A stretch of 64,000 nt of DNA. It comes from Flavobacterium sp. 140616W15. GTDB taxonomy: Bacteria > Bacteroidota > Bacteroidia > Flavobacteriales > Flavobacteriaceae. The translations under genes and the position numbers were made by a program. Positions within the stretch are counted from its first letter, which is position 1, and each line of letters opens with the position of its first letter. Below the pieces are notes generated by a model. The model saw only the letters and a list, made by a program, of their open reading frames with translations. It searched no databases and was not told where the DNA came from. The DNA is taken from assembly GCF_003668995.1 (NCBI RefSeq), contig NZ_CP033068.1, positions 3,720,001 through 3,784,000 of the forward strand, written 5' to 3'. Positions 3,224 to 18,421 of the stretch are shown piece after piece.

Positions 3224-4708
3224 ATGAAAAAAACTATTTTAATTGTTTTATTTATATTTTCCTTTTTCAACACTATTATTTTTGCTCAAAACTACAATAA
3301 GAAGCAGATAGATAGCTTGTTAAAACTTTCTTATAGTTATATGGGAAATATTCCATATAAAATAATTCCTTTAAATCTAGAGATTGTAAAAGCTTCAAAA
3401 AAAATTGGATATAGACGAGGGGTAATAATTGCTTATGCTTATATCAGTAAAGAATATTATAATTTAGACGAAATTAAAAAAGCTCTGATCTATATTTCAA
3501 AAGCTGAAGCTGAGGCAAATATCATTAATGACCCTTCCTTATTGTCTAGTATTTTCAGAATAAAAGCAATGTGTTTCGCTCGTGCGGGTCTTCATACTGT
3601 TGCGAGAAAAGAATTAATTAAAGCATTAGCTATTACTGATTCTATTAAGGATCTAGATGAACAACACATAAAAAGAGGATTCATTTATAGATTAATGGCA
3701 CTTGCAATTGTAGCCGAAAATAACAAACCAAAAGATTCCAGCCTATATTATAGCAAAAAAAGTTATAAGGAATTTTTGAGTATGAAAAATGAGAACTTTC
3801 TAAAAAATGATGGACTATCTATTGCTTCATTAGAACTAGGTCATAATTTTACTATCTTAAAGCAGAATGACTCAGCAGAATATTATTTTAAAAAAGGTTT
3901 TTCAATTGCTAATAAAATAGACTATACCTATGGAAAAGCCTATTCACTTAAACTTTTAGGAGAACTCTATTTTATAAAACAAGAATATAAGCAATCTATT
4001 ATTTATTATAATGAAGCAATTATCGAGGCAAAAAAAAACCAATTAAGATCTCTTTTAAAAGATTGTTATATTGGCTTATCAAAAGTATATAACGCTATAG
4101 GTAATACTCAAGAATACAAGAAATCACTTAGTAATTATATTGAACTAACAGATAGTCTTAAAGTATTAAATGACAAAATAGTTGATGAGTCTGTAGAATA
4201 TGTTATTAAAGAAAAAGAGAAAGATTACGAATACGGTACTTTAAAATTACAAAAGATAAAAACTTTTTTAATAGGTATCATTCTAATAATTGCAGTTCTA
4301 TTGTTTTTCATTTATAAAAAATATAAATTTGAGAGAATAAAAAGAATAAAAAATACTGAATTACTGAAAAAAAAGAAAGAAAAATTAGAACGCCTAACCG
4401 ATTCTAATAGAATTACTTTACAGGAAGTATTGCAATTAGCAATTGATAAAGCCCCCTCTTTTAATGCTAAATTTCAGGAATTAGAACCCGACTTTTATGA
4501 CAAACTAAATCAAAAAGCCATTGTGCCGCTCAATTATAATGATTTACTATTTTGTGCTATGATTCGTTTAGGATTCACAACAAAAGAAATTGCACAAAAT
4601 CTAAATTCTACAGTAGGAGCTGTAGAAACCCGAAAATACCGATTACGAAAAAAGTTTAACATGGTTTCATCAGAGGAGGATCTTACGCTTTGGATAATGA
4701 ACCTATAA
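3224..4708 (+). CDS. Membrane-anchored TPR regulator with LuxR-like HTH (cassette A)
   Basis: A 494-residue predicted one-component transmembrane regulator. Residues 1-22 form a signal peptide ending IIFAQ. Residues ~30-330 are tetratricopeptide repeats, expected in the periplasm. One membrane helix lies at 348-366 (FLIGIILIIAVLLFFIYKKY). A charged linker leads to a C-terminal HTH at ~436-480, with LNYNDLLFCAMIRLGFTTKE followed by IAQNLNSTVGAVETRKYRLR. This TPR-TM-HTH plan is frequent in Flavobacteria. Its last ~107 residues are about 85% identical to those of the second regulator at 11837, while the TPR halves have diverged. It precedes two exported-protein genes after a 611-base leader. Inference: it senses something in the periplasm and controls the genes downstream. 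Confidence 0.85.
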   Translation: MKKTILIVLFIFSFFNTIIFAQNYNKKQIDSLLKLSYSYMGNIPYKIIPLNLEIVKASKKIGYRRGVIIAYAYISKEYYNLDEIKKALIYISKAEAEANIINDPSLLSSIFRIKAMCFARAGLHTVARKELIKALAITDSIKDLDEQHIKRGFIYRLMALAIVAENNKPKDSSLYYSKKSYKEFLSMKNENFLKNDGLSIASLELGHNFTILKQNDSAEYYFKKGFSIANKIDYTYGKAYSLKLLGELYFIKQEYKQSIIYYNEAIIEAKKNQLRSLLKDCYIGLSKVYNAIGNTQEYKKSLSNYIELTDSLKVLNDKIVDESVEYVIKEKEKDYEYGTLKLQKIKTFLIGIILIIAVLLFFIYKKYKFERIKRIKNTELLKKKKEKLERLTDSNRITLQEVLQLAIDKAPSFNAKFQELEPDFYDKLNQKAIVPLNYNDLLFCAMIRLGFTTKEIAQNLNSTVGAVETRKYRLRKKFNMVSSEEDLTLWIMNL

Positions 4709-5045
4709 AAGCTTCGTTTGCATTTTATCTGGTTCTAAAAATACCCCTGGTCTTATAAATATACCCATAAAAAAATATTTTATACGGTTAGAGTTGACTC
4801 AGACTGTCAAAATTTCCTGATTTAAAAAAGACCTAAAATTAGGTTTTAAGCAGGCCATAAATAGTGTTTTTATACCCTCTCTTAATTAAAATTTTCTTTT
4901 CACTGTATTTATTTAATAAAAAAAACAAAAAAGGAAGCTCTTTCTGAATGATTATAAATTATTGTTTTTCAACTATTTACGATTAAAAAAATTCTTTGTG
5001 ATAAATTGTGATATTTAAAATTAGTACTAAATTACAATTTCACAC

Positions 5046-5053
5046 TACTTTTG
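5046..5053 (+). promoter_or_regulatory. Candidate promoter -7 element, cassette A
   Basis: TACTTTTG inside the conserved block CTACTTTTGCACTCCCCC. The same octamer is at the equivalent place in cassette B (13632-13639). No TTG is at the -33 position in either copy, which suggests an activator-dependent promoter. Confidence 0.5.
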
Positions 5054-5210
5054 CACTCCCCCTTTGTAGCAAAAAATTATCATACGCATAATTATTACGT
5101 TACATCCAAATTCAGTCAGATTATAGAATAAGTATATTTTTCATCTTACTGTACTCCCATCAAAATAATTTGATAGTTATTACACTAACATCATCTCTAA
5201 AAATTTAAAT

Positions 5211-5224
5211 AAAACACATGTTTT
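5211..5224. promoter_or_regulatory. A/T-flanked palindrome, cassette A leader
   Basis: AAAACACATGTTTT, one base pair short of perfect symmetry. The matching site in cassette B is a perfect 18-base palindrome. In RNA it could form a short stem followed by a U-rich run. It contains an ATG (5218) that opens the downstream frame but is unlikely to be the real start. Confidence 0.45.
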
Positions 5225-5234
5225 TTTATTTAAA

Positions 5235-5280
5235 GACGTCTTGCATTGGGTTCTGTTTTACCAAAATAATGCAAGGTGTC
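5235..5280 (+). promoter_or_regulatory. Conserved 46-nt leader hairpin, cassette A
   Basis: The arms GACGTCTTGCATT (5235-5247) and AATGCAAGGTGTC (5268-5280) pair over 13 consecutive positions as RNA, with two G-U pairs and a 20-base loop. The equivalent hairpin in cassette B is the same length and keeps the outer nine pairs despite sequence change. It ends 39 bases before the start codon. Confidence 0.55.
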
Positions 5281-5319
5281 CTGTTATATTATAAAATCAA
5301 TAAATCAAATACTACCATT

Positions 5320-5913
5320 ATGAAGAATACAAATTACTTATCCCAACTATTTATAATTATGTCACTTCTTGTGTCTTTACCATTGTTTGCCCAGCATAAA
5401 GGGACTGGTATAGGTACCTTCACTCCCGATCCGAGTTCCTCTTTAGATGTAAAAAGTGAGAATTCAGGAGTATTAATTCCCAGAATCTCCGGATTAACAA
5501 ATGATAATACTACCTCATCTGTCAAAAATCCGGCTAACGGTTTGTTGGTTTACAATAAAGACAAACAGTGCCTAAGCCAGAATATTGGCACCCCAGAAGC
5601 AGCTAACTGGATTTGTATTAGCGGTAATGTCGTAAAATTCTTTTATATGCCCTCAATAGCATTAGATATTACGATTACAAACGGCAGATATGATTTATTT
5701 GAACTGTATAAAAAACAATTTTCTAATCCGGTAGTAAAGAGTGATGGCGCGCCTTCACAAATTCCCTTTTTTGGCGCCGCACAGGATCTATACTATTATG
5801 TAACTGCATATAGTGCTATTGTTTTTGAAGACGTAAAAGTCAGTCCAGAAGGTATCCTCACCTACAAAGTAAAAAAGACGCACAGACTAACAGTGACAGC
5901 AGTGATTTTATGA
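5320..5913 (+). CDS. Small exported protein with FISUMP-type N-terminal region
   Basis: A 197-residue predicted secreted protein. Signal peptide at 1-25 (MKNTNYLSQLFIIMSLLVSL, then PLFAQ). The next part (GIGTFTPDPSSSLDVKSENS, GVLIPRISGLT, NPANGLLVYNKD) is the stretch seen at the N-terminus of many Bacteroidota surface proteins with FISUMP or tail-fibre-like organisation. The same type of region begins the 1102-residue protein of cassette B. The last ~85 residues are unfamiliar. I chose the ATG at 5320 because it starts the signal peptide. An upstream in-frame ATG at 5218 lies in the conserved leader palindrome. The next gene begins 32 bases downstream. Confidence 0.7.
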   Translation: MKNTNYLSQLFIIMSLLVSLPLFAQHKGTGIGTFTPDPSSSLDVKSENSGVLIPRISGLTNDNTTSSVKNPANGLLVYNKDKQCLSQNIGTPEAANWICISGNVVKFFYMPSIALDITITNGRYDLFELYKKQFSNPVVKSDGAPSQIPFFGAAQDLYYYVTAYSAIVFEDVKVSPEGILTYKVKKTHRLTVTAVIL

Positions 5914-5945
5914 ACATTGTTCTTGTTGTAAAATAATATGAAACT

Positions 5946-8900
5946 ATGAATCAGATTAATTTTTATATAATACATAGCAAAAAGCAGAAAGGAAGAAAAC
6001 TATTTTCTTTTATTCTTTTCTTTTTGTTAATGAATTTTACCGCTGTTGTATATGGCCAGAAGACAGGCTGTCCAGGTGATTTTGATTGCGATACCGTTAT
6101 TGATGCTTTGGATATCGATGATGATAATGACGGTATTTACGATCATATCGAATCGCCTGGTTGTTTTTATCTGGATAAAAAAATACATGAAACCGGAGAT
6201 CGGAGAGATCAATTGGCAGTTAGTACTACTTTACCGTATTCTACAGGAACACCAGAAGAGTTGGTAGACGGGGTAACCAATACAGGTGGAATTACAATTC
6301 CTGTTTTAACAGCTATAGCCAATCAGGAGATATTCAGGCTAACAACGAAGTTAGCTACTGGTATCGAATATACTTCTTTGATACTATCTTCTTCTACTTC
6401 TATGTTTACCACTGCTGCAGAAGTAGTTTTACAAGGCTCAAAAGATGGAAAGAACTGGATTAATTTAACCCCCAATCTTAAACCCGGATCGGTCAATTCG
6501 TTTACTTTTAACGTTGATGCAGGTAAACAGGATTTATATAGACATTATCGTTTGTGGGGTATAACAGGAACTACGTATTATTACTTACAATCTTTTATGG
6601 AAATTACTGGAATAGTTGGGAATTATATGCCGTCTTTATATCCTAAAGATGTATGTGAAGGAGAAGATATCGATGGGGATGGACAACCCAATCATCAGGA
6701 TTTAGATGCTGATGGGGATGGTATAGCCGATGTACTCGAAGCTGGTTTTTCGGATCCGGATAAAGATGGAAAATTAGGAAATAGCCCAGTTACAGTAGAT
6801 TCGTATGGAGCCGTTATTGCTGCCTCTGGGTACAGCATACCCTATGAATATTATAAGATAGCCGCCATTGATGCCACAAAAGATACTGATGGTGATGGTG
6901 TTTGGGATCTATTTGATGTAGATGATGATAATGATGGCATCTACGATCATATTGAATCATCAGGTTGTTTTGAACTGGATAAAAAAGCATATGAAACGGG
7001 AGACCGAAGAGAGCAATTGGCGTTTAGTACTACTTTACCATACTCTGGAGGGACGCCAGAAGAGTTGGTAGACGGGGTGGTAACCAATTCAGGTGGAATA
7101 ACGATTCCTGGATTGACCTCTATAGCCAATCAGGAGATATTCAGACTCACAACGAAGTTAGCTGCTGGTATCGAATATGCTTCTTTGATACTATCTTCTT
7201 CTACTTCTACGTTTACCACTGCTGCAGAAGTGGTTTTACAAGGCTCAAAAGATGGAGAGAACTGGATTAATTTAACCCCCAATCTTAAACCCGGATCGGT
7301 TTCTTCGTTAACTTTTAAAGTTGATGCGGATAAACAGGATGTATACAGACATTATCGTTTGTGGGGTATAACAGGAACTACGTATAATTACCAACAATCT
7401 TTTAGGGAAATTACAGGAATAGCAGATCATTATATGCCGTCTTTATATCCGAAAGCTATATGTGTAGGAGAGGATATCGATGGAGACGGAATCCCGAATC
7501 ATCAGGATTTAGATGCTGACGGAGATGCTGCAACTGATGTGCTCGAAGCGGGTTTTTCGGATCCAGATAAAGATGGATTATTAGGAAATAGTCCCGTTAC
7601 AGTAGACCGCTTCGGAGCTGTTACTTCTGCGTTAGGGTACAGCATCCCGTATGAATATTATAAAATTGCGACCATTGATGCTACAAAAGACACCGATGGA
7701 GATGGTGTTTGGGATCTATTTGATGTAGATGATGATAATGATGGTATCTACGATCATATTGAATCACCGGATTGTTTTGATCTGGATAAAAAAGTATATG
7801 AAACTGGAGACCGAAGAGCACAATTGGAGGTGACTACTACTTTACCTTATACCAAAGGGGTTCCAGAAGGCTTAATAGACGGGATATTAACCGATGCAAC
7901 AGGTATTAGAATTCCTGGGTCAACACCTATAACCAATCAGGAGATTTTCAGACTGACCACTAAATTGACAGCTGGGATCGAATATACTTCTCTTACATTA
8001 TATCTTGATTATTCTATTTTTATCAGTGGTTCGAAAGGAATTTTACAGGGTTCTAATGATGGATTGAATTGGGTAAATTTAACGGATGATAATCAATTGG
8101 GGACCTATTATCCCGTTACTATTTTGGTTACCAAGAATCATGGAGCCTTCAGACATTATCGACTGTTGGGTACAGCTGGTAAAACCACAACAACTGTTCG
8201 GATTATTAGAGAAATTACGGGAGTAGTTGGGAACTATATGCCTTCTTTATATCCAAAAGCAACTTGTGAAGGAGAAGATATCGATGGAGACGGAATCCCA
8301 AATCATCAGGATTTGGATGCTGACGGAGATGGTGCGTCTGATGTACTCGAAGCGGGCTTTTTGGATCCTGATGCGGATGGTTTTTTAGGAAATAGTCCTG
8401 TTATAGTAGATTCATATGGAGCTGTTCAGGATCATGGCTATATTAGTCCGTTATTGTATTATAAACTGAAAGACAATACCATTACAGAAGATACCGATGG
8501 AGATGGCGTCTGGAATATATTTGATTTAGATGATGATAACGATGGTATTTATGATTACATCGAATCCCCTGAATGTTTTACAGCCAAAAATGTTTTTGAA
8601 ACCGGAGACAAAAGAGAATTCCTTGAGGTTAGTACCACTTTAGCATATACCGCTGGAACTCCGAAAGAATTGATAGACGGAGTAACCAGTACAGATGGCA
8701 TTACGATTCCTGCTGCAACGCCTATAGCCAATCAGGAGATTTTCAGACTGAGTACTACCTTAGCTTTGGGTATCGAATATGCTTCTATTTCGTTAACTCT
8801 TGATAATCCTATTTTTAATAATGGATCCAAAGGAATTTTACAGGGATCCAACGATGGATTAAGTTGGACAGATTTAACAGCCGACAGCCAGCTGAATACA

Positions 8901-10637
8901 ACTAATCCAGTTACTATCTCAGTTGCGAAAAATCAGGGGTCGTATCGGGTATATCGCTTATTGGGTACAGCAGGAACTACTACCACTATCCGAATTATTA
9001 GAGAAATTACGGGAGTAGTTGAGAATTATATACCGTCTTTATATCCGAAAGCAATATGTGAAGGAGAAGATTTGGATGGAGATGGAATCCCGAATCATCA
9101 GGATTTGAATGCAGATGGAGATACGTGTAATGATGTTTTGGAAGTTGGTTTCTTAGATGATGATAAAGATGGAATATTAGGCAACAGTCCGGTTACTGTA
9201 AATCAGTTTGGAATGGTTACCTCAGCACAGGGATATACGCTTCCTCCTAATATGTATTGGCTGGATATTACTAAAAATGTATGTTCAGGAGAAGGAATTC
9301 CTTTGGACGAAGATTCCCATTGCACTGATTTAGAAGACCTCAATAGCGACACCAATTTAGCACAATCTATTTTCCATTCTACTATAGTAACCACTAAAGA
9401 CGGTTACTCCATATTTGGGCAGGCAACACATCCTTCTGGTAGTGGTAATCTTACAACCCCTACTCCTATGACTCCAGGAAATGGTTTCACTTACGAAGGA
9501 GAAATCAGATTGGCAGCGTTAGCGGGGGTAACTGGAGGATATGACTTTTCTCAATATTTTATATTATCAACAAAAGGATTGTATGTATGGGGGCCTACAA
9601 AAAACATGGCTATCCCCACAGGATGGACTACTAATACTGGATTTTCAAAAATTCAGCTGCCAGCTGGTGTTACTCCAGAAAACATTAAGAATATGAGTGC
9701 CAGTTATACCAATTTGGTGCTGTTAACCAAATGGGGAGAGGTCTATATTGCAGCTGGAAATTATAGCACTGTTCATCCTTCTGTATATGGGGATGGAAGC
9801 ACTGTTATAGATAATACATGGCATAAAGCGGCAATTAATCAAGTTGTTTCTGTTAAAATCAATAGCTTCGGTCAGGCACTGGCATTAACAAATTCAGGAA
9901 AATTATATACTTGGGGTGCAAATGTTTATTTAGGAGATGCTTCAGCATATAAGATATTGTCTGTTCCAACTCAAATGACACTTCCTTCCTCAATAACCAA
10001 GGTTAAAATGACTGCACTGACTTATAATGGCGGAAGTGCTACTTATTTTGTTTTGGGAGAAGATAAAAGAGTTTACTCTTTAGGAGGAGGGAATAATGGG
10101 ATTTTAGGTATTAATTCGACAGCAATTTCGACTACTTGGAATACAGTAAAAAGCCCTTCTGGAACTGGGGCAGGTACTGGTACTGGTACTGGTACTGGTA
10201 CTGGTTATCTGGAAAACATTAAATTTATTACAGCAACTCTTCATGATAATACTGTTGGTGCAGCTGGTGCAATTGATGAGAATGGCGTGCCCTACTTGTG
10301 GGGAGAAAATGGTAGTTCCCGTTTAGGAGCTCCTTCTAGTGGCTCGATACTTTTACCAAGAATACCAGATGGAATAACCCCAGGATTTCATAATATTATT
10401 GCAGTGGAGATGGGAGGCCATGTTACCCCTATTATAGATAAACGACTGGGTAAATTTGGGTATATAGGACATAAGACTTCTGGGAGTATGGGAGTACCCG
10501 GAGAAGGTACAATAACAAAATATGATTTTGAGAATACGCCTGAAGTCGATTTTTGTAATATTGTAATCGGTAGCCGCAAAAAAATGCGTGTTACTGTTAA
10601 CCCAATGACTATTAATACTCCCATAAAAAAAGAATAA
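5946..10637 (+). CDS. Giant exported protein with four Ca-binding/discoidin-like modules and RCC1-like repeats
   Basis: A 1563-residue predicted secreted or surface protein. Signal peptide at 1-38. Four tandem modules of 267-269 residues begin near residues 58, 326, 595 and 862. Each opens with an acidic TSP3-like segment (DVDDDNDGIYDHIES), has a beta-rich part with DGVTNTGGITIP and TNQEIFRLTTKL, and closes with DIDGDGIPNHQDLDADGD and GNSPVTVD. From ~1150 to ~1530 the protein changes to RCC1-like propeller repeats (GLYVWGP, KLYTWGANVYLGD, VYSLGGGNNGILG, PYLWGENGSSRLGAP). A (GT)n stretch lies near residue 1415. No T9SS tail is visible. Adhesion or Ca-dependent surface assembly is inferred. Modules 1 and 2 are very similar at DNA level. 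Confidence 0.8.
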   Translation: MNQINFYIIHSKKQKGRKLFSFILFFLLMNFTAVVYGQKTGCPGDFDCDTVIDALDIDDDNDGIYDHIESPGCFYLDKKIHETGDRRDQLAVSTTLPYSTGTPEELVDGVTNTGGITIPVLTAIANQEIFRLTTKLATGIEYTSLILSSSTSMFTTAAEVVLQGSKDGKNWINLTPNLKPGSVNSFTFNVDAGKQDLYRHYRLWGITGTTYYYLQSFMEITGIVGNYMPSLYPKDVCEGEDIDGDGQPNHQDLDADGDGIADVLEAGFSDPDKDGKLGNSPVTVDSYGAVIAASGYSIPYEYYKIAAIDATKDTDGDGVWDLFDVDDDNDGIYDHIESSGCFELDKKAYETGDRREQLAFSTTLPYSGGTPEELVDGVVTNSGGITIPGLTSIANQEIFRLTTKLAAGIEYASLILSSSTSTFTTAAEVVLQGSKDGENWINLTPNLKPGSVSSLTFKVDADKQDVYRHYRLWGITGTTYNYQQSFREITGIADHYMPSLYPKAICVGEDIDGDGIPNHQDLDADGDAATDVLEAGFSDPDKDGLLGNSPVTVDRFGAVTSALGYSIPYEYYKIATIDATKDTDGDGVWDLFDVDDDNDGIYDHIESPDCFDLDKKVYETGDRRAQLEVTTTLPYTKGVPEGLIDGILTDATGIRIPGSTPITNQEIFRLTTKLTAGIEYTSLTLYLDYSIFISGSKGILQGSNDGLNWVNLTDDNQLGTYYPVTILVTKNHGAFRHYRLLGTAGKTTTTVRIIREITGVVGNYMPSLYPKATCEGEDIDGDGIPNHQDLDADGDGASDVLEAGFLDPDADGFLGNSPVIVDSYGAVQDHGYISPLLYYKLKDNTITEDTDGDGVWNIFDLDDDNDGIYDYIESPECFTAKNVFETGDKREFLEVSTTLAYTAGTPKELIDGVTSTDGITIPAATPIANQEIFRLSTTLALGIEYASISLTLDNPIFNNGSKGILQGSNDGLSWTDLTADSQLNTTNPVTISVAKNQGSYRVYRLLGTAGTTTTIRIIREITGVVENYIPSLYPKAICEGEDLDGDGIPNHQDLNADGDTCNDVLEVGFLDDDKDGILGNSPVTVNQFGMVTSAQGYTLPPNMYWLDITKNVCSGEGIPLDEDSHCTDLEDLNSDTNLAQSIFHSTIVTTKDGYSIFGQATHPSGSGNLTTPTPMTPGNGFTYEGEIRLAALAGVTGGYDFSQYFILSTKGLYVWGPTKNMAIPTGWTTNTGFSKIQLPAGVTPENIKNMSASYTNLVLLTKWGEVYIAAGNYSTVHPSVYGDGSTVIDNTWHKAAINQVVSVKINSFGQALALTNSGKLYTWGANVYLGDASAYKILSVPTQMTLPSSITKVKMTALTYNGGSATYFVLGEDKRVYSLGGGNNGILGINSTAISTTWNTVKSPSGTGAGTGTGTGTGTGYLENIKFITATLHDNTVGAAGAIDENGVPYLWGENGSSRLGAPSSGSILLPRIPDGITPGFHNIIAVEMGGHVTPIIDKRLGKFGYIGHKTSGSMGVPGEGTITKYDFENTPEVDFCNIVIGSRKKMRVTVNPMTINTPIKKE
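6117..9290 (+). repeat. Four in-frame tandem modules of 801-807 bases
   Basis: The GATGATGATAA motif that opens each module is at 6117, 6921, 7728 and 8529, giving periods of 804, 807 and 801 bases, all multiples of three. Modules 1 and 2 share long near-identical DNA runs. Modules 3 and 4 form a second pair (both have GGATTATTAGAGAAATTACG or a close variant). Confidence 0.85.
10173..10202 (+). repeat. Hexanucleotide microsatellite (GGTACT)5
   Basis: Five exact copies of GGTACT inside the RCC1-like part of the giant gene, encoding alternating Gly-Thr. The unit is six bases, so gain or loss of copies keeps the frame. Confidence 0.85.
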
Positions 10638-10669
10638 ATCAATTCGTTATTAGCATCATTTTTTTCACA

Positions 10670-10703
10670 AGAGGTTGTCTGAAAGTAATTTTAGACAACC
10701 TCT
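10670..10703 (+). terminator. Terminator after cassette A
   Basis: AGAGGTTGTCT / AGACAACCTCT stem with a 12-base loop, then TTTATTT. Thirty-two bases after the giant gene's stop. A sequence relative lies at 10994-11027. Confidence 0.75.
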
Positions 10704-10724
10704 TTTATTTGTTGAAATAATATT

Positions 10725-10975
10725 ATTGATAAAGAAAGTCCAGCGGGACGTTACATTTATAGCAATTTTATTTATAATCAAAAGAACCCCATCAGGGTGG
10801 TGTTTCATTAACCACACAACCAACACTCCTGAACGACAATCAATTGGAACAATACCTATAACAATCTAAAGAAAAAACCAAAATATCGCTACGCTGTAGC
10901 TTTTTCCTAAACCCATTTAAATTTGCTATAAATAGGATGCTCCGCTGGAGCAATTATCTATCATGTCTTCTAAAA
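10725..10975. repeat. Degenerate dispersed repeat remnants
   Basis: No gene is visible. Pieces such as TCCAGCGGGACGTTACATTT, CCCCATCAGGGTGGTGTTTC and TGCTCCGCTGGAGCAAT resemble the short imperfect palindromic repeats scattered through Bacteroidota genomes. The match is from memory of such elements. Confidence 0.45.
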
Positions 10976-10993
10976 TTTAAAAAAAACAACAAA

Positions 10994-11027
10994 GAGGCTA
11001 TCTGAAAATTACTTTTCGGACAGCCTC
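10994..11027 (+). terminator. Second terminator-like hairpin, related to 10670-10703
   Basis: GAGGCTATCTGAAAA / TTTTCGGACAGCCTC, with one mismatch and one G-U pair. Its sequence parallels the hairpin at 10670-10703, so the two are probably copies of one mobile hairpin repeat rather than independent terminators. Confidence 0.6.
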
Positions 11028-11185
11028 ATTTGTTTAAAGTATTTTTTAGATGTAATACCATTGAATAATTCAATCGTTATACTTTCAAAAAGCAAAAGGA
11101 CTAGATTAAAATAATGCTGTTATTGCAAGAAGCTTTACACAAAACCAACCACATTTGAATATAAACAGACCTTCAAATCTAATCT

Positions 11186-11548
11186 ATGGGAATACTTGAC
11201 AGACTATGTGGAAAATCGATATCTAAAAATCCTGAAGAGGAATATATCATACCAATAACAGATGAATCTATAAAAGTGGAACATCCTGATAGAGAAACTG
11301 AAACCATTTTATGGAAAGATATTGAGTCCATAAAATTAATAAATACAGATAATGGTCCTTTTGCACCAGATGTTTGGTTGGCATTAATCGATAAAAATAC
11401 GGGCTGTTTAATTCCTCAGAGAACAAAGGGATTCGAAACGGTTTATGCCATCGTTTCAGAATATGAAAATTTCAATTTTGAGAATTTCATCGAATCAATC
11501 TCCTGCACCGATAATGGAGAGTTCTTACTTTGGAAAAAAGAGGAATAA
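11186..11548 (+). CDS. Hypothetical protein
   Basis: A 120-residue soluble, acidic protein that I do not recognise. Visible blocks are an N-terminal MGILDRLCGK, a strand-rich middle (ETETILWKDIESIKLINTDN), a conserved-looking GPFAPDVWLALIDKNTGCLI and a C-terminal FLLWKKEE. The pattern of strands followed by an amphipathic helix would suit a small PH-like or immunity-type fold, but that is a guess. It sits alone between the two cassettes, with an unclear promoter and no terminator of its own. Confidence 0.6.
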   Translation: MGILDRLCGKSISKNPEEEYIIPITDESIKVEHPDRETETILWKDIESIKLINTDNGPFAPDVWLALIDKNTGCLIPQRTKGFETVYAIVSEYENFNFENFIESISCTDNGEFLLWKKEE

Positions 11549-11563
11549 ATATTAATTTAGTAA

Positions 11564-11809
11564 AACTATTACTTTATTTTAGTCTATTCATTTTTATTTG
11601 TTGGAGCATTCTTCTTTTTATTATTTATAAAAACCAGTGTCTTTTATAGTAATGCGTTTTATATGAGCTGTGTTATTTTTATTTTTAATTCCATTGATAC
11701 CAGCTCTTATCTGGATGATATCAATACACTTTCGGGAAAACTCCAAAAAAAATTTGCTGTACATAAAAAAACAAACCATAAAGTAATCGATACTGTAAAT
11801 AATAGATAA
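11564..11809 (+). other. Open stretch without a good start, possible small membrane protein or gene remnant
   Basis: The frame is open for 82 codons. Before its first ATG (11663) it reads FILVYSFLFVGAFFFLLFIK, which looks like a membrane helix, followed by a polar tail ending VIDTVNNR. Starting at 11663 would give only 48 residues and lose the helix. It may be a decayed gene, a protein with a non-ATG start, or chance. Confidence 0.25.
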
Positions 11810-11836
11810 TTTTATATTTAGACAAACTATAATAAA

Positions 11837-13303
11837 ATGAAAAAAACGGTGGCAATTATTATTTTTCTATTCTGCAATACTATTGCTCTTTCTCAAACCT
11901 ATACTAAGGGACAGATCGATAGTTTAATCGTAGTATGCGAAAAATATATATACGATATGAATGGCAAAACAAAACCACTGGCTTTGGATATTATAAAACA
12001 TTCTGAAAAAATAAAATATCCTCATGGAATCATTCTTGGTTACGAACTCATTATTTCTAATTATGGTTTTTTAGGAGATTTTAAAACAGCACTAGAATAT
12101 ATTACCCTTGCAGAGAAAGAAATGCCTAAAATACAAGATAGTACCCTATTTATTGGTATTATCCGTTTAAAAGGAGATTGCTTGAGCAGAACAGGTCTTT
12201 ATCAAAGAGCAAGAAAAGAGTTTAACAGAAGCCTGAGATTAGCTGATAAAATAGAAAATAAAGATTATAAACACAGTTTCAAAGCAAACATTTATAATTC
12301 TATTGCAATGACTATAAGCAAACAAGATGAGACTAACGATTCTATATTTTATTATTACAGAAAATGTATTTCTGAATTTCAGCAAAGAACAACTCATCAG
12401 GAAGGGAAGAAAAGATCTATAGCACAAATTAATTTAAATATAAGCACTTGTTTTATTCAGATTAAGCAATATGATTCTGCAGCCTATTATGTTCAGAGAG
12501 CCCTTAAATTACTCGATAAAAAAGATACTACCGTCCTTAAACTAAATGCTTATAAAAATTTAGGAGATATTCATTTAGGAAAAAGAGACTATAACTCCGC
12601 AATTTATTACTATGAATCCATATTAGACAAAGCAAAAACAGCGCATCAAATATATATTTTAAGTAATGCTTATTCTAAATTATCAACTATTTATGCTATT
12701 CTGGGTGATGATCAGAAATCAAGAGCGTATCAGGAAAAATTTACAATAATAAACAGAGAGATCAATAAATCAGAAAAAGATGCCTTAGAAGTTTCTGTTA
12801 AAAATATAGAAAAAAAACATGACGACAACGTTAAGTCTTCCCGACTAATTTTTAACGTTATCCTAAGTTGTGTACTATTACTTTCAGGTATTGTAGTGTA
12901 CTTTCTTATTAAGAAATTAAAAAACACAAAAGCAGCTAAAAAAAATAAAGCCAAACTACTTTATGAGAAAGAATTAGAATTAGAGCGTTTAGCAGATTCT
13001 AACAAAGTTACTTTACAGGAAGTATGGCAATTAGCAGTTGATAAAGACCCTTCTTTTAATACTAAATTTCAGGAATTAGAACCCGACTTTTATGACAAAT
13101 TAAATCAAAAAGCCATTGTTCCGCTTAATTATAACGATCTATTATTTTGTGCTATGATTCGTTTAGGATTTATAACAAAAGAAATAGCACAAAATCTAAA
13201 TTTGTCAGTAGGAGCTATTGAAACCCGAAAATCTCGATTACGAAAAAAGTTCAATATGATTTCTTCAGAGGACGATCTTACAATCTGGATGATGAATCTT
13301 TAA
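11837..13303 (+). CDS. Membrane-anchored TPR regulator with LuxR-like HTH (cassette B)
   Basis: A 488-residue paralogue of the regulator at 3224. Signal peptide at 1-20 (ending TIALSQ), TPR region ~25-310, one membrane helix at ~337-358 (LIFNVILSCVLLLSGIVVYFLI), a charged coiled linker, then a C-terminal LuxR-like HTH (LLFCAMIRLGFITKEIAQNL then NLSVGAIETRKSRLRKKFNM). The HTH half is about 85% identical to regulator A over ~107 residues and the DNA is similarly close, whereas the TPR halves share little beyond pattern. This suggests a shared DNA target with different sensed signals. The leader that follows is the homologue of the one after regulator A. Confidence 0.85.
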   Translation: MKKTVAIIIFLFCNTIALSQTYTKGQIDSLIVVCEKYIYDMNGKTKPLALDIIKHSEKIKYPHGIILGYELIISNYGFLGDFKTALEYITLAEKEMPKIQDSTLFIGIIRLKGDCLSRTGLYQRARKEFNRSLRLADKIENKDYKHSFKANIYNSIAMTISKQDETNDSIFYYYRKCISEFQQRTTHQEGKKRSIAQINLNISTCFIQIKQYDSAAYYVQRALKLLDKKDTTVLKLNAYKNLGDIHLGKRDYNSAIYYYESILDKAKTAHQIYILSNAYSKLSTIYAILGDDQKSRAYQEKFTIINREINKSEKDALEVSVKNIEKKHDDNVKSSRLIFNVILSCVLLLSGIVVYFLIKKLKNTKAAKKNKAKLLYEKELELERLADSNKVTLQEVWQLAVDKDPSFNTKFQELEPDFYDKLNQKAIVPLNYNDLLFCAMIRLGFITKEIAQNLNLSVGAIETRKSRLRKKFNMISSEDDLTIWMMNL

Positions 13304-13631
13304 ACCTTTCTTTTGTATTTATCTGATTCTAAAAAAACACAGCTAATTCTATAAATTATAAAAAAAATTATAGGTTTAGAATTGACTCTGTATCTCAAAA
13401 ATTATTGATTTAAAAAGACAAAAAAATATGTTTTAGACAGGCCATAAATGGTGTTTTTTGTCATCCCCTGATTAAAATTTTCTTCTCATTATTTTTATCT
13501 CTTAAAAAAATAAAAATAAAAAGCTATTTTTTTAAATTTTCAACTTACTAAAAAACAACCACTTACAAAATAAAATACGCCTTGTAATAAATTGTAATGT
13601 TTAAAAATAGTTCTGAATTATAATTTCACGC

Positions 13632-13639
13632 TACTTTTG
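13632..13639 (+). promoter_or_regulatory. Candidate promoter -7 element, cassette B
   Basis: TACTTTTG in the block CTACTTTTGCACTCCCCC, identical to that of cassette A. Predicted leader of about 255 bases before the ATG at 13898. Confidence 0.5.
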
Positions 13640-13795
13640 CACTCCCCCTTTGTAGCCAAAAATTATCATACGCCTAATTATTGCTTCGCACCCAAATCCA
13701 GCTAGATTATAAAACAAGTATATTTTTCATCTTGCTGTCCTCCCACGAAATAATCTGATTGTTATTGCCCCAACATCATATCTAAAAACTTAAAT

Positions 13796-13813
13796 AAAAA
13801 ACACGTGTTTTTT
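13796..13813. promoter_or_regulatory. Perfect 18-base palindrome, cassette B leader
   Basis: AAAAAACACGTGTTTTTT is perfectly self-complementary. It could be an operator for a dimeric regulator or, in RNA, a seven-pair stem followed by a U-rich run. The equivalent at 5211-5224 is slightly imperfect. Confidence 0.5.
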
Positions 13814-13821
13814 ATTTTAAA

Positions 13822-13867
13822 GATGTCTTGCCTTTGGTTCTATTTTACCAAAATAGTATAAGATATC
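13822..13867 (+). promoter_or_regulatory. Conserved 46-nt leader hairpin, cassette B
   Basis: The outer nine pairs of GATGTCTTG with the facing arm hold. Compared with cassette A, C5237-G5278 has become T13824-A13865, a compensatory double change, and T5239-G5276 has become T13826-A13863. Two inner pairs are lost. It ends 30 bases before the start codon. Confidence 0.55.
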
Positions 13868-13897
13868 CTGTCATATTAAAAAATTAAAGTAAAAAAA

Positions 13898-15073
13898 ATG
13901 ATAACTAAAAGAATACTATTGACGCTCTTTTTTGTTTACAATTGTGCCATATGGGCACAGAATATTACTATCTCATTTATAAAATTCCCTTCAAAAAGCT
14001 ATGCATTAATTGAATATAAAGGAACAAAATCTGATACGATAGTAAAAGGTTATTTAGACAAGCAAGGAAACGCAAAATTACAGCTGCCTGCTTCGGTTAA
14101 AAATTATCAAGGAATGGTATCGCTTATTATAGATAAAGATGCAAAAATGGATATGATTATGAACAATGAGAATTTTTCAGTTGCATCAATCTATGCCTAT
14201 CCTGATACGCGTACATCACAATTTATAGGATCTGAAGAAAACCAATTTCTCAAAGATTATCTTTTGGGAAATGAAGTAATTGCTAATCCTAAATTATACG
14301 TTAATCAATTGAAGAAGGAAATGGACTATCTCAATCGAATTTTAGTAGCAGCGAATGCTTCAGATTCAGCCATAGAAAGTCTGCGCTCAGAATTTTTAAA
14401 TGTAGACATGCCTGTACTTTATCATTCTCCATTTTGGAAAACAATGCTTACTTATTGGGTAATAATGTATAACAATCGAATAAAAGATGATGATAAACTA
14501 ATCGCTGATGCTTTGCAAATCATGAAAAACATAAAGCAGGAAGCAACATTAGACGAGTTTGCCAATAACCTGGTAGATATATGCGAGCAATATGGTTGGG
14601 AATATATTAAAAATCAGTTGGTACAACAGATCTATAATTCAGGGATGATCAAATCTCCAACCCGTCATCTAGCTATACTTTTAAAAAGTAGCGGAGTGCA
14701 AATAGGAGAAACACCACCTGATTTTTTAGTAGATAAAAAAACTAAACTGAGCTCTTTATTTAAAGATAAACTGTTATTGTTTTTTTACGACAGTGCTTGC
14801 TATAAATGCAGTAATGAAATAAAAGAATTGAAGGCCTATTCAGAAAAACTAACAGAAAATAAGATAAAAATAGTATCCATTTCGGTAGATCCTACTAAAG
14901 ATGAATTAGAAGAAAATACCAAGGATTTTTCATGGAAATACAAACTAAATGATCCAGATAATCATATTTTCCATCCTTATGGAGTAATCATGACCCCTAC
15001 CTATTTTGTAATAGAAAAAGGAAAGATAGCAGGTAGATATGCCCGATTGGAAGATATAGGATTACATAAATAA
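13898..15073 (+). CDS. TlpA-like thioredoxin-domain exported protein
   Basis: A 391-residue predicted periplasmic thiol-disulfide protein. Signal peptide at 1-20 (ending AIWAQ). Residues ~22-250 form the N-terminal domain typical of Bacteroidota TlpA-like proteins (a beta-rich part, then helices). From ~270 comes a thioredoxin/AhpC-TSA fold: GETPPDFLVD, the redox motif CYKC at C301-C304 within SACYKCSNE, and the cis-proline at 367 in MTPTYFVIEKG. Such proteins reduce or shuffle disulfides in the periplasm. It is the first gene after leader B and lies 39 bases before the Ig-like/FISUMP gene, whose product has many cysteines. A folding role for that partner is inferred. Confidence 0.8.
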   Translation: MITKRILLTLFFVYNCAIWAQNITISFIKFPSKSYALIEYKGTKSDTIVKGYLDKQGNAKLQLPASVKNYQGMVSLIIDKDAKMDMIMNNENFSVASIYAYPDTRTSQFIGSEENQFLKDYLLGNEVIANPKLYVNQLKKEMDYLNRILVAANASDSAIESLRSEFLNVDMPVLYHSPFWKTMLTYWVIMYNNRIKDDDKLIADALQIMKNIKQEATLDEFANNLVDICEQYGWEYIKNQLVQQIYNSGMIKSPTRHLAILLKSSGVQIGETPPDFLVDKKTKLSSLFKDKLLLFFYDSACYKCSNEIKELKAYSEKLTENKIKIVSISVDPTKDELEENTKDFSWKYKLNDPDNHIFHPYGVIMTPTYFVIEKGKIAGRYARLEDIGLHK

Positions 15074-15112
15074 ATTTCAAATTAATTAAACTTTACAAAC
15101 ATTAAAAATATT

Positions 15113-18100
15113 ATGAGAACTAGAATGAGAATGAGATTTTTAATTCCTTTTTTATTACTGTTGCCTACAGTAATTTTAGCACAAACAGTTATAGGATCGG
15201 TTTCAAAGCCTGCCAGTTATTCCTTGCTGGAATTATCTACAGCAAAAATTAAAGGAGGTATTAGAATGCCTCAACTTACCACAGTAGAAAGAGACAATCT
15301 TACTACGCCAAGCTTTATTAGTGATGCAAAAGCAATAGGGCTTACAATATATAATATAGATACCAAATGTATAGAATACTGGAATACAAACAAATGGGTA
15401 AGTTTATGTTCTGGTAATGCTGATATTGGCTTTAAGCCAAATGATCCCTCCAAGCCTGTTTATCCTCCAGAAGGCGGAATAGTAGGCCCTTTTATCCCTA
15501 TAGAAACTCCTCCTTGTACAGGAAAGATTCCTTATACTCATACAGTTATAACAGGTAGTGATTTTATTTCTATCGACATTACAGATAATAATACGGGAGC
15601 ATTTACTATAAAAATGGAGCCTAACTTAACTGCAACTTCACGTACAGCGATTGTACGTTCTACAAATAATTGTACAGGAGAATATAAAGAGTTTTTATTT
15701 ACACAAGATGGGGATACTAAATTATGTGATTTAACCGTTGCAAAGCCGCTAATAGCTGTGAGCAACAATGGCGTGCTTTGTATCGGTGGAGATGTATTTA
15801 TGGAAGTAACAAACGTAAAATCTGGGGCAAATTATATCTGGACAATTAATAATATTGTACAAGGACAAGGAACGAGCTTTAGAGCAACCCAATCAGGTAT
15901 TTATAAGGTATATGTGGGAGCAATAGGTTGCGATAAATTAAATGCAAATAGTGTCTCGGATAATATAAAAGTTACTACAGGTTCTGGCACCGCACCAAAC
16001 AATACTACAGTTTTATATGCAACTAATAACGGAATAATCTGTGGAGCTACAGGAGAAGTTACACTAACTGCTTATAATTTTTCACAACTCAGTGAGCTTA
16101 CTTGGTATAAAAATGGAAAAAAAACAACTAAAAAAGGGACTGCAATTATTCTTAAAGCAGCAGATAAGGGAGAATGGACTGCTGTTATAGAACGCGATAA
16201 TTGTAGTTCTTTACCTAGCAAAAGCGTTACTGTATCTGTAGATGAGTCAAGCAAACCGCTTAAACAACCGATAATTTCGATTAATGGAAAACTACTGTCA
16301 CAATTAAATGATTTTTGTAGTAACGGGCGTTTAAAACTAGAATTAAGTAACCCACCTAGCGATTATACAAATGCTGTGACTGTTAAGTGGTATAACGGCC
16401 TAGAGTATCTTGGTGAAGGCAAAGAGCTTACGATAACGGCGCCTTCTAGTGGCAATAATATTATACTGCGTTGTGTAGTTTCAGATAATACAGGAGTTCT
16501 TTGTTCAGCAGAATTTACCGAGACTAAAAAATTGCAAGGAACAGCACCAGCAACTCCAGTAATTACAGCTAATCCGCCACTTATTTGTGGTAGTGTAGAT
16601 GCTCAGTTAACAGCAACTGTAACTGGTGGTCCTTTTACTTTTCAGTGGTACAAAGAAGGAGTACTTATGCCTGATAAAGTAAGCCAAACTCTTACTGTTG
16701 ATAAAATAGGTTCGTACCAAGTAGAAGCAATTAATCAATCCGGTTGTATTAGTTCTTTATCAGCTGCACTTTTGATAGACTTGTCTGATTTTCCAGTTTT
16801 AGAATGGAAGGCAGTTTATGATAAAGCCGAGCTCAACCAAACAAAAATATTTCAGGTATCCGATACATTTAATCCTACATCCTATACCTGGACAGCAGAT
16901 AATGGAGCAACAATAGAAAATGGACAGGGTACAAATACCGTTCGTATAAAATTTCCTAATGCAGATGCAATAGTGAATATAACAATTGAAGCAGAAAATG
17001 GTTGTGGTATTAGTAACAAATTGAATCAGAAAGTAACAGTAGCTCCTGCTTGTATTGCAGCTGTTATAAAAAAGACTACCATGTCTCCTACAGGAACAGT
17101 TCTTACGGGTAACTCGGTAACTATGTCAGTACTCGCAGAGGGATCAAACACGGCTACAGCACCTATTACCTATCAGTGGAAGTTTAATGGTACTTCAATT
17201 TCTGGAGCAACTTCGGCTACGTACACAATAAACAATCTAAAAACGAATAATAGTGGTAGTTATAGCTGTGTTGTAAACAATTGTAGTAACAAACCCGTTA
17301 CAACCACAGCTGGAACAATTGATGTTATTGACGAAACTACGCTTCCAAAAGGGAGTGGTGCTATAGCTGGAGAAGATTGTTTTGATATTGCCTCTGCATC
17401 AAGTAATAATGCTAAATGTGGGCTACTCTCATCTAGAGAATCCCACAGAGCCGATTTTAATAAATCGTACACTTATACATTTACAAGTATTGGTTCGAGT
17501 AATACAAATTTACGCTTTGTTATTAATGATCCTGAAAAAGCAGTGGAGAGTTATCAAGTACAAAAAGACATACCAGCCACTTTAGGGAATGGAGCAAAAT
17601 ATACAGTTACGATTAAATATAAGCAATCTTTAATGACTACTGCAGCAGGTAGAGACAATGACAATCCTGTTAGAGTTACACTAGTAGCTCTTTATAAAAC
17701 GGGAGGTGTTGAGGGTAAATCGAAACTAGAAATTACAATTAAAGATTGTACGTGTTGTTCTGTGGCTACAGATCTTGATGGGAATGTATATACAGCAAAA
17801 CTTTTTGGAGATACTTGCTGGATGACCCAAAACTTACGCACAACTGTAGACAAAGATGGAAAAAGTTTGGGTGGAGTATATCTATATGCTGGAAGTGGGA
17901 TTTCAGGCATTTATAATGCAAGTGATCTGAAAAGCGGTACTGTAACTTATGTTGTAAATGATGTACGTACAACTGAATCTCGTGCAGATTTTGCGTCTAA
18001 ATTTGGTTTATTATATAATGATTACCAAAAGGCTCTTAATCCTTGTCCAGAGGGATGGCACGTATCTACAATTTCAGAATGGATTAACTTACGTAGTTTG

Positions 18101-18421
18101 TTGTTGGCAAAAAATAGTAAGTATGGCAAACAAGCAAAGGCAAATAATAATAAATATCAGCCATCGTATGGCGGTGGATATACCTGGGGAGGGTACGCTC
18201 CAAATGACAGTAACAATTCAGGCTTTAACCTGTTGCCAACAGGATATACATACAATAGTGGGAGTGGTACTTATGGTCAAAATTTTGCAAGCGTTGCAAT
18301 GATGGCGTTATCTGGAACTACTCAATATATTTGGTTGACAAACAATAGCGATGTTTTTTATTTTACGAATGCTACAGCAGATACAAAGTATAATAAACCT
18401 ATTAGATGTGTTAAAAATTAA
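15113..18421 (+). CDS. Exported Ig-like and FISUMP-domain surface protein
   Basis: An 1102-residue protein with a signal peptide at 1-24 (ending ILAQ). Residues ~25-100 hold the same N-terminal region as the small protein of cassette A (SLLELSTAKIKGGIRMPQL, GLTIYNIDTKCIEYW). The middle is a string of Ig-like or PKD-like beta domains with repeated Trp/Cys pairs (VKWYNGLEYLGEGK, TFQWYKEGVLMPDK, TYQWKFNGTSISGA). From ~878 comes a FISUMP domain: DLDGNVYTAKLFGDTCWMTQ, NPCPEGWHVSTISEW, GYTWGGYAPNDSNNSGFNLL, and the closing KPIRCVKN. No T9SS tail is apparent. Last gene of cassette B, with a terminator 86 bases later. Adhesion is inferred. Confidence 0.85.
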   Translation: MRTRMRMRFLIPFLLLLPTVILAQTVIGSVSKPASYSLLELSTAKIKGGIRMPQLTTVERDNLTTPSFISDAKAIGLTIYNIDTKCIEYWNTNKWVSLCSGNADIGFKPNDPSKPVYPPEGGIVGPFIPIETPPCTGKIPYTHTVITGSDFISIDITDNNTGAFTIKMEPNLTATSRTAIVRSTNNCTGEYKEFLFTQDGDTKLCDLTVAKPLIAVSNNGVLCIGGDVFMEVTNVKSGANYIWTINNIVQGQGTSFRATQSGIYKVYVGAIGCDKLNANSVSDNIKVTTGSGTAPNNTTVLYATNNGIICGATGEVTLTAYNFSQLSELTWYKNGKKTTKKGTAIILKAADKGEWTAVIERDNCSSLPSKSVTVSVDESSKPLKQPIISINGKLLSQLNDFCSNGRLKLELSNPPSDYTNAVTVKWYNGLEYLGEGKELTITAPSSGNNIILRCVVSDNTGVLCSAEFTETKKLQGTAPATPVITANPPLICGSVDAQLTATVTGGPFTFQWYKEGVLMPDKVSQTLTVDKIGSYQVEAINQSGCISSLSAALLIDLSDFPVLEWKAVYDKAELNQTKIFQVSDTFNPTSYTWTADNGATIENGQGTNTVRIKFPNADAIVNITIEAENGCGISNKLNQKVTVAPACIAAVIKKTTMSPTGTVLTGNSVTMSVLAEGSNTATAPITYQWKFNGTSISGATSATYTINNLKTNNSGSYSCVVNNCSNKPVTTTAGTIDVIDETTLPKGSGAIAGEDCFDIASASSNNAKCGLLSSRESHRADFNKSYTYTFTSIGSSNTNLRFVINDPEKAVESYQVQKDIPATLGNGAKYTVTIKYKQSLMTTAAGRDNDNPVRVTLVALYKTGGVEGKSKLEITIKDCTCCSVATDLDGNVYTAKLFGDTCWMTQNLRTTVDKDGKSLGGVYLYAGSGISGIYNASDLKSGTVTYVVNDVRTTESRADFASKFGLLYNDYQKALNPCPEGWHVSTISEWINLRSLLLAKNSKYGKQAKANNNKYQPSYGGGYTWGGYAPNDSNNSGFNLLPTGYTYNSGSGTYGQNFASVAMMALSGTTQYIWLTNNSDVFYFTNATADTKYNKPIRCVKN

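Follow-up and report, generated by a model that had tools for sequence, protein, structure and literature searches.

Exchanged sensor and output halves, and a predicted common operator-promoter, in two tandem transmembrane regulators of Flavobacterium sp. 140616W15

Transcriptional regulators of the ToxR/CadC type and VtrA-like co-component cassettes join a periplasmic sensor, through one membrane helix, to an N-terminal winged-helix DNA-binding domain. In the Bacteroidota, the FimS/FimR system of Porphyromonas gingivalis controls a surface adhesin through a periplasmic tetratricopeptide repeat (TPR) sensor, as described in the parts of two reports that were available to us (PMC11053733, PMC1974823). 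We analysed a 64,000-nucleotide stretch (the window; genome positions 3720001-3784000) of the complete 4.94-Mb genome of Flavobacterium sp. 140616W15 (referred to as G000), which carries two cassettes, A and B, each made of a regulator gene, an intergenic region with a promoter and a long leader, and genes for exported proteins. Regulators A and B share with FimS/FimR the phylum, the type of sensor and a predicted role in surface protein control, and with the ToxR/CadC and VtrA-like proteins a periplasmic sensor, a single membrane helix and a cytoplasmic DNA-binding domain. No publication describing this regulator type or its operator was found among the matches listed, as judged from titles and the starts of abstracts, in a literature search that left subscription papers mostly outside its scope. 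Here we report the exchange of sensor and output halves among these regulators, their promoter motif with its genome-wide distribution, and the likeness of the two leaders within the genome.

Regulator A (494 aa) is encoded at 3224..4708 and regulator B (488 aa) at 11837..13303, both on the forward strand, as are all window features given below; the two cassettes stand in tandem with identical gene order. Regulator A consists of a signal peptide, a TPR sensor (residues ~23-345), a membrane span (~346-368) and an output half with a helix-turn-helix (HTH; residues 395-494, window 4406-4705), and the output half of B lies at 13001-13300. TPRs were detected in both proteins by Pfam (PF13424, TPR_12), while the signal peptides, membrane spans and topology were read from the sequence. 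The C-terminal HTHs are Sigma70_r4- and GerE-like at scores under the Pfam cut-offs; with 18.6 and 21.8 bits against the curated GerE cut-off of 23.5, they fall outside LuxR/GerE as that family is defined. Pfam and NCBIfam gave no kinase or receiver domain match in either protein, and the HTH of A showed a weak NCBIfam match, far below cut-off, to the BT3442 family.

The AlphaFold2 model of A, built on an alignment of 12 sequences (mean predicted local distance difference test 79.5, predicted template modelling score 0.56), shows a TPR superhelix (helices 26-292), a single long helix with the membrane span (295-392) and a helical output domain (399-493). Residues 385-395, which link the long helix to the DNA-binding domain, form one of its five low-confidence segments. 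Both sequence and fold searches related the TPR part to LGN and the Rap peptide receptors. With the whole model as query, the best 50 of 1240 matches were mostly TPR proteins (LGN, kinesin light chain, BtubC, Rap receptors), and the fold search was thus uninformative on the output domain; solved structures yielded no match under E 0.2 when searched with the output-half sequence. The first-pass annotation had given both regulators one plan, that of a transmembrane one-component switch, and the open reading frames (ORFs), the Pfam TPRs and the model of A agree with it, as does the lack of a kinase or receiver match. We refer to this architecture as TPR-TM-HTH (TM, transmembrane); DNA binding and ligand-controlled transcription are predicted for it, and the fold suggests that the ligand is probably a peptide or a protein.

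The two regulators are very unequally alike along their length. Their sensors (residues 25-345) are 30% identical and their linkers (346-394) 29%, versus 85% for the output halves (395-494), which is the figure that the first-pass annotation had counted by eye over the last ~107 residues while calling the TPR parts unlike. In 50-bp steps, DNA identity rises from ~0.5 to 0.9 near 4374-4424, within the gene and just after the membrane helix, ranges over 0.86-0.98 in the output half, 0.56-0.82 just past the gene and 0.82-0.90 in the promoter and leader, and drops at the cargo start. The shared block, which in the A copy covers the output half and the entire intergenic region (4374..5320), thus runs unevenly to the cargo start codon. 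The noncoding stretches 3′ of the two genes, noted earlier as homologous over ~600 bases, align at 77% identity over ~604 bp (E 3e-126).

With the output half of A as query, ~5.8 billion proteins yielded 10 relatives besides A, and searches with the A and B sensors added P0012 and distant relatives; since P0012, with an output of the second type, had been missed by the output-half search, the list is incomplete. The halves of 20 sequences were compared separately, in an identity table and in one 20-sequence tree per half with approximately unbiased (AU) tests; the rows own1, own2 and P0017 drew a long-branch warning. Two sensor types and two output types were found in all four combinations: sensor A with output type 1 (A itself) or type 2 (P0010-12), and sensor B with output type 1 (B and P0002-P0008) or type 2 (P0009). 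Regulator A is 71-73% identical to P0010..12 in the sensor and 68-72% in the output half, and P0009 is 74% identical to B in the sensor and 87-91% identical to P0010..12 in the output half. In the sensor tree A groups with P0010-12 with full support, and placing A in the type-1 group is rejected (p-AU 7e-56). In the output tree the nine type-1 rows form one group (99/99), and A with P0010-12 is rejected (p-AU 3e-84). The trees also split P0009: its sensor-side test gives p-AU 1e-86, and the output tree rejects its placement with the B types (p-AU 6e-49).

Residues 346-394 go with the sensor, being 56-60% identical between A and P0010..12 against the 29% between A and B, which puts the sensor/output joint near residue 385-400; the low-confidence segment at 385-395 coincides with the step in A-B DNA identity. 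The crossover is therefore near the joint of the signalling helix and the DNA-binding domain. The discordant trees and the four combinations bear out the earlier suggestion of swapped sensors and indicate that sensor and output ends were exchanged between genes by recombination, the sensors of A and B being old paralogues whose output halves were exchanged.

Behind both regulator genes we identified a common promoter, composed of a direct repeat of period 10 (TTGTRATAAA TnGTRATRT) and then TACTTTTG. In A the repeat reads TTGTGATAAA TTGTGATATT, with TACTTTTG 33 bp past its 17-base core. Pattern scans and alignment place the predicted operator of A, the direct repeat TTGTGATAA A TTGTGATAT, at 4996..5014 and its -7 box at 5046..5053; the predicted operator of B, TTGTAATAA A TTGTAATGT, with one G-to-A change in both half-sites, lies at 13582..13600 and its -7 box at 13632..13639. 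These -7 boxes fit the flavobacterial consensus TAHHTTTG, as given for F. johnsoniae in the accessible part of the source (PMC6847099). Across four sites, namely those of A and B and two in Flavobacterium branchiarum (G276) referred to as F1 and F2, the half-sites of the direct repeat match in 30 of 32 comparisons, a value equalled by 1 of 2000 column permutations. An inverted repeat seen by eye near operator A was dropped, as it is absent from F1 and F2. A sigma-70 and terminator scan gave fewer promoter-like sites than in shuffled sequences, and no terminator.

We scanned 398 genomes of the genus with the pattern TTGTRATAAATNGTRAT-N33-TANNTTTG, taking the reversed pattern as control. At up to two mismatches 52 places were found (4 with none, 7 with one and 41 with two), against 20 for the control, and the only genomes with a perfect operator-promoter were G000 (two) and F. 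branchiarum (two). Two of the 48 places with one or two mismatches were inspected and proved to be the same ArsC-like coding sequence. Close regulators of the A/B class were also found only in these two genomes, in profile searches of 269 and 347 genomes (overlapping sets, part of the 398). The 18-mer repeat alone occurs twice in G000 and three times in F. branchiarum (once within a coding gene) and is absent from four genomes with related regulators (G298, G313, G072 and G111); its control gave none in all six. It is thus probable, from the sequence pattern, that A and B had a common ancestral DNA target. The common target proposed in the first-pass annotation is likely in this sense of ancestry, perfect operator-promoters being confined to genomes where such regulators were found, and no more than possible as a present-day fact.

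F. branchiarum has one B-type cassette (F1), with matching gene neighbourhood and orthologous cargo. The F1 intergenic region aligns with those of A and B up to TTTGCA and, beyond that, only over ~24 nt directly ahead of the cargo ATG. This otherwise matching neighbourhood (L088) lacks the A cassette (about 8 kb, window 3224-11548), which was either gained in the window lineage or lost in F. branchiarum. The fourth perfect site, F2, was found by the pattern, 290-320 nt (depending on the start codon chosen) upstream of a gene for an exported protein; no regulator of the A/B kind stands beside it in the 19-kb stretch read.

The leader, measured from the -7 box to the chosen start codon, spans 5054..5319 (266 nt) in A and 13640..13897 (258 nt) in B, where 23 of the last 24 nt match the F. 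branchiarum orthologue; over the four sites its length is 258-365 nt. Its body is alike within a genome, strongly for A-B (z 55) and less so for F1-F2 (z 4.5, above all 200 shuffles), and the four cross-genome pairs are not above shuffles (z 0.6, 2.0, 2.8 and 0.2), the 2.8 of B-F1 coming only from the 24 nt that precede the orthologous start codon. By comparison, the 220-bp upstream flank of the operator is above all shuffles for A-B (20.2), F1-F2 (10.7), A-F1 (8.2) and A-F2 (6.1), and not for B-F1 (2.9) and B-F2 (2.5), so that ~200 bp upstream of the promoter are common to F. branchiarum, less clearly than the promoter itself. A and B are 84.5% identical in the leader, 82.9% across operator and promoter and 70.8% upstream. 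As the leader, at 84.5%, is no better kept than the silent codon sites of the output half (79-86%), it shows no constraint beyond recent common origin, and the A-B likeness is best read as shared recent origin rather than as a conserved leader. Contrary to the first-pass annotation, relatives lack the leader body: it is missing from the orthologous F. branchiarum cassette and from the 1.5 kb downstream of two further tandem TPR-HTH regulators of like architecture in G000 (1442698-1445646). Paralogues more alike than orthologues are a mark of concerted evolution, according to the available part of the source (PMC2720389), and the leader shows this pattern (A-B z 55 versus B-F1 z 2.8, for one orthologue pair).

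A search with the leader by BLAST in the 398 genomes matched 18 besides its own, all over 29-48 bases and mostly in an AT palindrome; this search was weak, as two candidates were scored per genome and it missed the F. branchiarum promoter match seen by direct comparison. The long AT-rich palindrome is present in both leaders (5204-5233 and 13792-13817), the B copy being perfect over 26 bp. A short element, AATTaCT..GTTACaTCCaAA, can be made out by eye near the start of all four leaders. In the F1 leader (L088, minus strand), the place of the body common to A and B is taken up by repeats of the form GTATACAGTC...TTTAGT, and tandem intergenic repeats at L088 4564-6261 are read as TARFARLKRKxRKV in several ORFs.

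The cargo of A begins with an exported protein (5320..5913) with the head GIGT...LDV...G.LIPR; its ORF opens at 5218, and the most likely start is 5320, where the signal peptide (MKNTNYLSQLF...) begins. It is followed at 5946..10637 by a 1563-aa exported protein with repeats and F5/8-C-like and RCC1-like segments (Pfam). Cassette B encodes an exported protein of thioredoxin/AhpC-TSA fold (13898..15073), 80% identical to its F. branchiarum orthologue, and a 1102-aa exported Ig/PKD protein with a C-terminal Fib_succ_major (FISUMP) domain (15113..18421), 74% identical to its orthologue. The exported proteins had been described as different, which is not wholly the case: in a 10-protein set, the ~90-residue head of the F2 protein matches both the first cargo protein of A (E 4e-10) and the second of B (E 4e-8), which have no direct BLAST link to each other at E 1e-3. 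Thus, in all three kinds of unit, the predicted target is an operon with an exported protein of that head type. Proteins of this type are numerous, and with the F2 protein as query 13 matches were found in G000 and 6 in F. branchiarum, some outside the head. Those in G000 lie at three places: in the window, at 1.40-1.46 Mb together with the other TPR-HTH pair, and at 1.78-1.80 Mb, with no TPR-HTH regulator among the ORF starts and ends seen there. The latter two (L143-L146, L089) hold large clusters of exported GIGT-head proteins, together with genes that we take to be PorP/SprF-like and OmpA-like.

We propose that the periplasmic TPR superhelix would sense its putative peptide or protein, and that the one long helix would cross the membrane to the cytoplasmic GerE/sigma-4-like HTH. 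The latter would activate the promoter behind its own gene through the period-10 direct repeat, centred ~53 bp upstream of the transcription start, which is predicted near 5058 in A and near 13644 in B, ~5 nt past TACTTTTG. The product would be a long-leader mRNA that encodes exported surface proteins, one or more per unit having the common head type. DNA-binding half, promoter and leader would have been exchanged by recombination, presumably gene conversion, between paralogous regulators with very different sensors, with the crossover in the flexible joint after the signalling helix. Such an exchange in the window lineage would have made the A and B blocks alike, and A and B would thus descend from one shared target. 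As a whole, this account of a membrane switch on a downstream operator-promoter, with exchanged halves and common target ancestry, seems to us reasonably probable.

Several points weigh against it. The output halves of B and F1 (83% of residues) are about as alike as those of A and B (85%), and silent sites separate the two pairs weakly: at the third positions of shared residues identity is 86% (85.7%) for A-B, 81% for B and F. branchiarum and 72% for A and F. branchiarum, and at four-fold sites 79% (78.6%, 22/28) for A-B, 76% (19/25) for B-F1 and 63% for A and F. branchiarum. The repeat-rich F1 leader may have been replaced there, rather than those of A and B homogenised here, and the F1-F2 leader likeness is modest. 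The output group of P0009 and P0010-12 is supported only at 76/70, and the clades for the AU tests were chosen after the identity table had been seen. The pattern was built from three of the four sites, which leaves F2 and the absence elsewhere as the independent part; at up to three mismatches in 7 genomes it gave 16 places (A, B, F1 and F2 without mismatch and 12 with three) against 14 for the reversed control, with no gain beyond the four perfect sites. Finally, the stretches read around the two single regulators of G111 and G333 contain no gene for an exported GIGT-head protein.

Other explanations of the shared block were considered. Duplication of the whole cassette, which the first-pass annotation took as the simplest reading, would let purifying selection hold the output half and leader while the sensors diverged fast, with no exchange between genes. 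The cassettes are indeed in tandem, on one strand and in one order, and F. branchiarum has a single B-type cassette at the corresponding place; but the sensor and output trees reject each other, all four combinations exist, the leader body is unrecognisable in the orthologous cassette and the A-B leader is no more constrained than silent sites, so we hold duplication alone to be very improbable, unless the AU tests are model artefacts. Still harder to credit is a mobile or site-specific switching unit (phase variation) in place of homologous exchange: although the block has clear edges and contains the long palindrome, the genome yielded only two copies, which share one orientation, and a Pfam search of 9 proteins revealed no recombinase. 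The leader could instead be the functional part, as a structured 5′ untranslated region (attenuator or RNA switch) in both cassettes, with the HTH acting elsewhere. Its length of 258-365 nt far exceeds the mean of 33 nt in F. johnsoniae (PMC6847099) and the average of 65 and median of 24 nt in F. psychrophilum (PMC9723704), as stated in the accessible parts of these reports; the folding z is -1.97 and -1.96, and a predicted hairpin (5235..5280 in A) keeps 14 of 16 pairs in B (13822-13867), with one two-sided and three one-sided changes. However, 10 and 8 of 200 shuffles fold equally well, 2 of the 16 pairs are broken in a comparison of two sequences only, no Rfam family was found at gathering thresholds and the body is not common to F1 or F2, all of which makes an RNA switch improbable.

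A further possibility concerns specificity, in which the targets of A and B may be drifting apart. Only in B do both half-sites read TTGTAAT, whereas the sites of A, F1 and F2 carry TTGTGAT in both halves or GTGAT. In or directly ahead of the recognition helix (residues 464-477 of the model), regulator B departs from A by S462L, T463S, V467I and Y472S, positions at which the F. branchiarum regulator keeps the A residues. Each HTH might then read its own promoter only, operator and helix of B having co-evolved away from A. T463S and Y472S are peculiar to B and the near-identical P0003; S462L and V467I, however, also occur in type-2 outputs (both in P0012, V467I also in P0009), and the changes belong to one lineage only and could be neutral. 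Co-evolution is thus suggestive at most, and full insulation of the two switches is rather doubtful. Returning to exchange between paralogous regulators, we tentatively consider it possible that the joint is a standing recombination point, where different sensors are plugged onto a fixed cassette of HTH, operator and promoter that is homogenised within the genome, with helix and operator later retuned, perhaps in B. If this is true, operons for surface proteins acquire new inputs and keep their wiring. The locus gives the TPR-TM-HTH architecture a concrete predicted operator, target list and crossover point, and two sensors by two outputs form a natural chimeric receptor set for testing the rewiring of membrane one-component systems.

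Other TPR-TM-HTH regulators of Flavobacterium occur as tandem pairs in G000, G276, G298, G313 and G072 and singly in G111 and G333. Out of a set with many weaker regulator matches besides, the survey of neighbours covered these five pairs and two single regulators, and all five pairs lie close to exported GIGT-head proteins. The G000 pair and the G111 regulator are 23-31% identical to the A/B set in the sensor and 37-51% in the output half. No perfect operators beyond those of A/B, F1 and F2 were found for these regulators; a scan of the named genomes with the A/B alignment gave two distant loci. The regions upstream of the other tandem regulators' neighbours have blocks in common, which yielded no operator: in L089, 163 bp at 78% identity are shared upstream of 3215 (an exported-protein gene) and of 4690 (a tandem regulator pair), perhaps a second regulator-promoter set.

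Compared with the described systems, FimS, a histidine kinase, has two membrane regions and works with a separate regulator, whereas A and B each combine sensing and predicted DNA binding in one protein with one membrane span. The A and B sensors scored 15.0 and 22.3 bits against the NCBIfam FimS cut-off of 600, far from that equivalog. From ToxR, CadC and the VtrA-like proteins, with which they share the one-span plan, A and B differ in having a TPR sensor and a GerE/sigma-4-like HTH at the C terminus.

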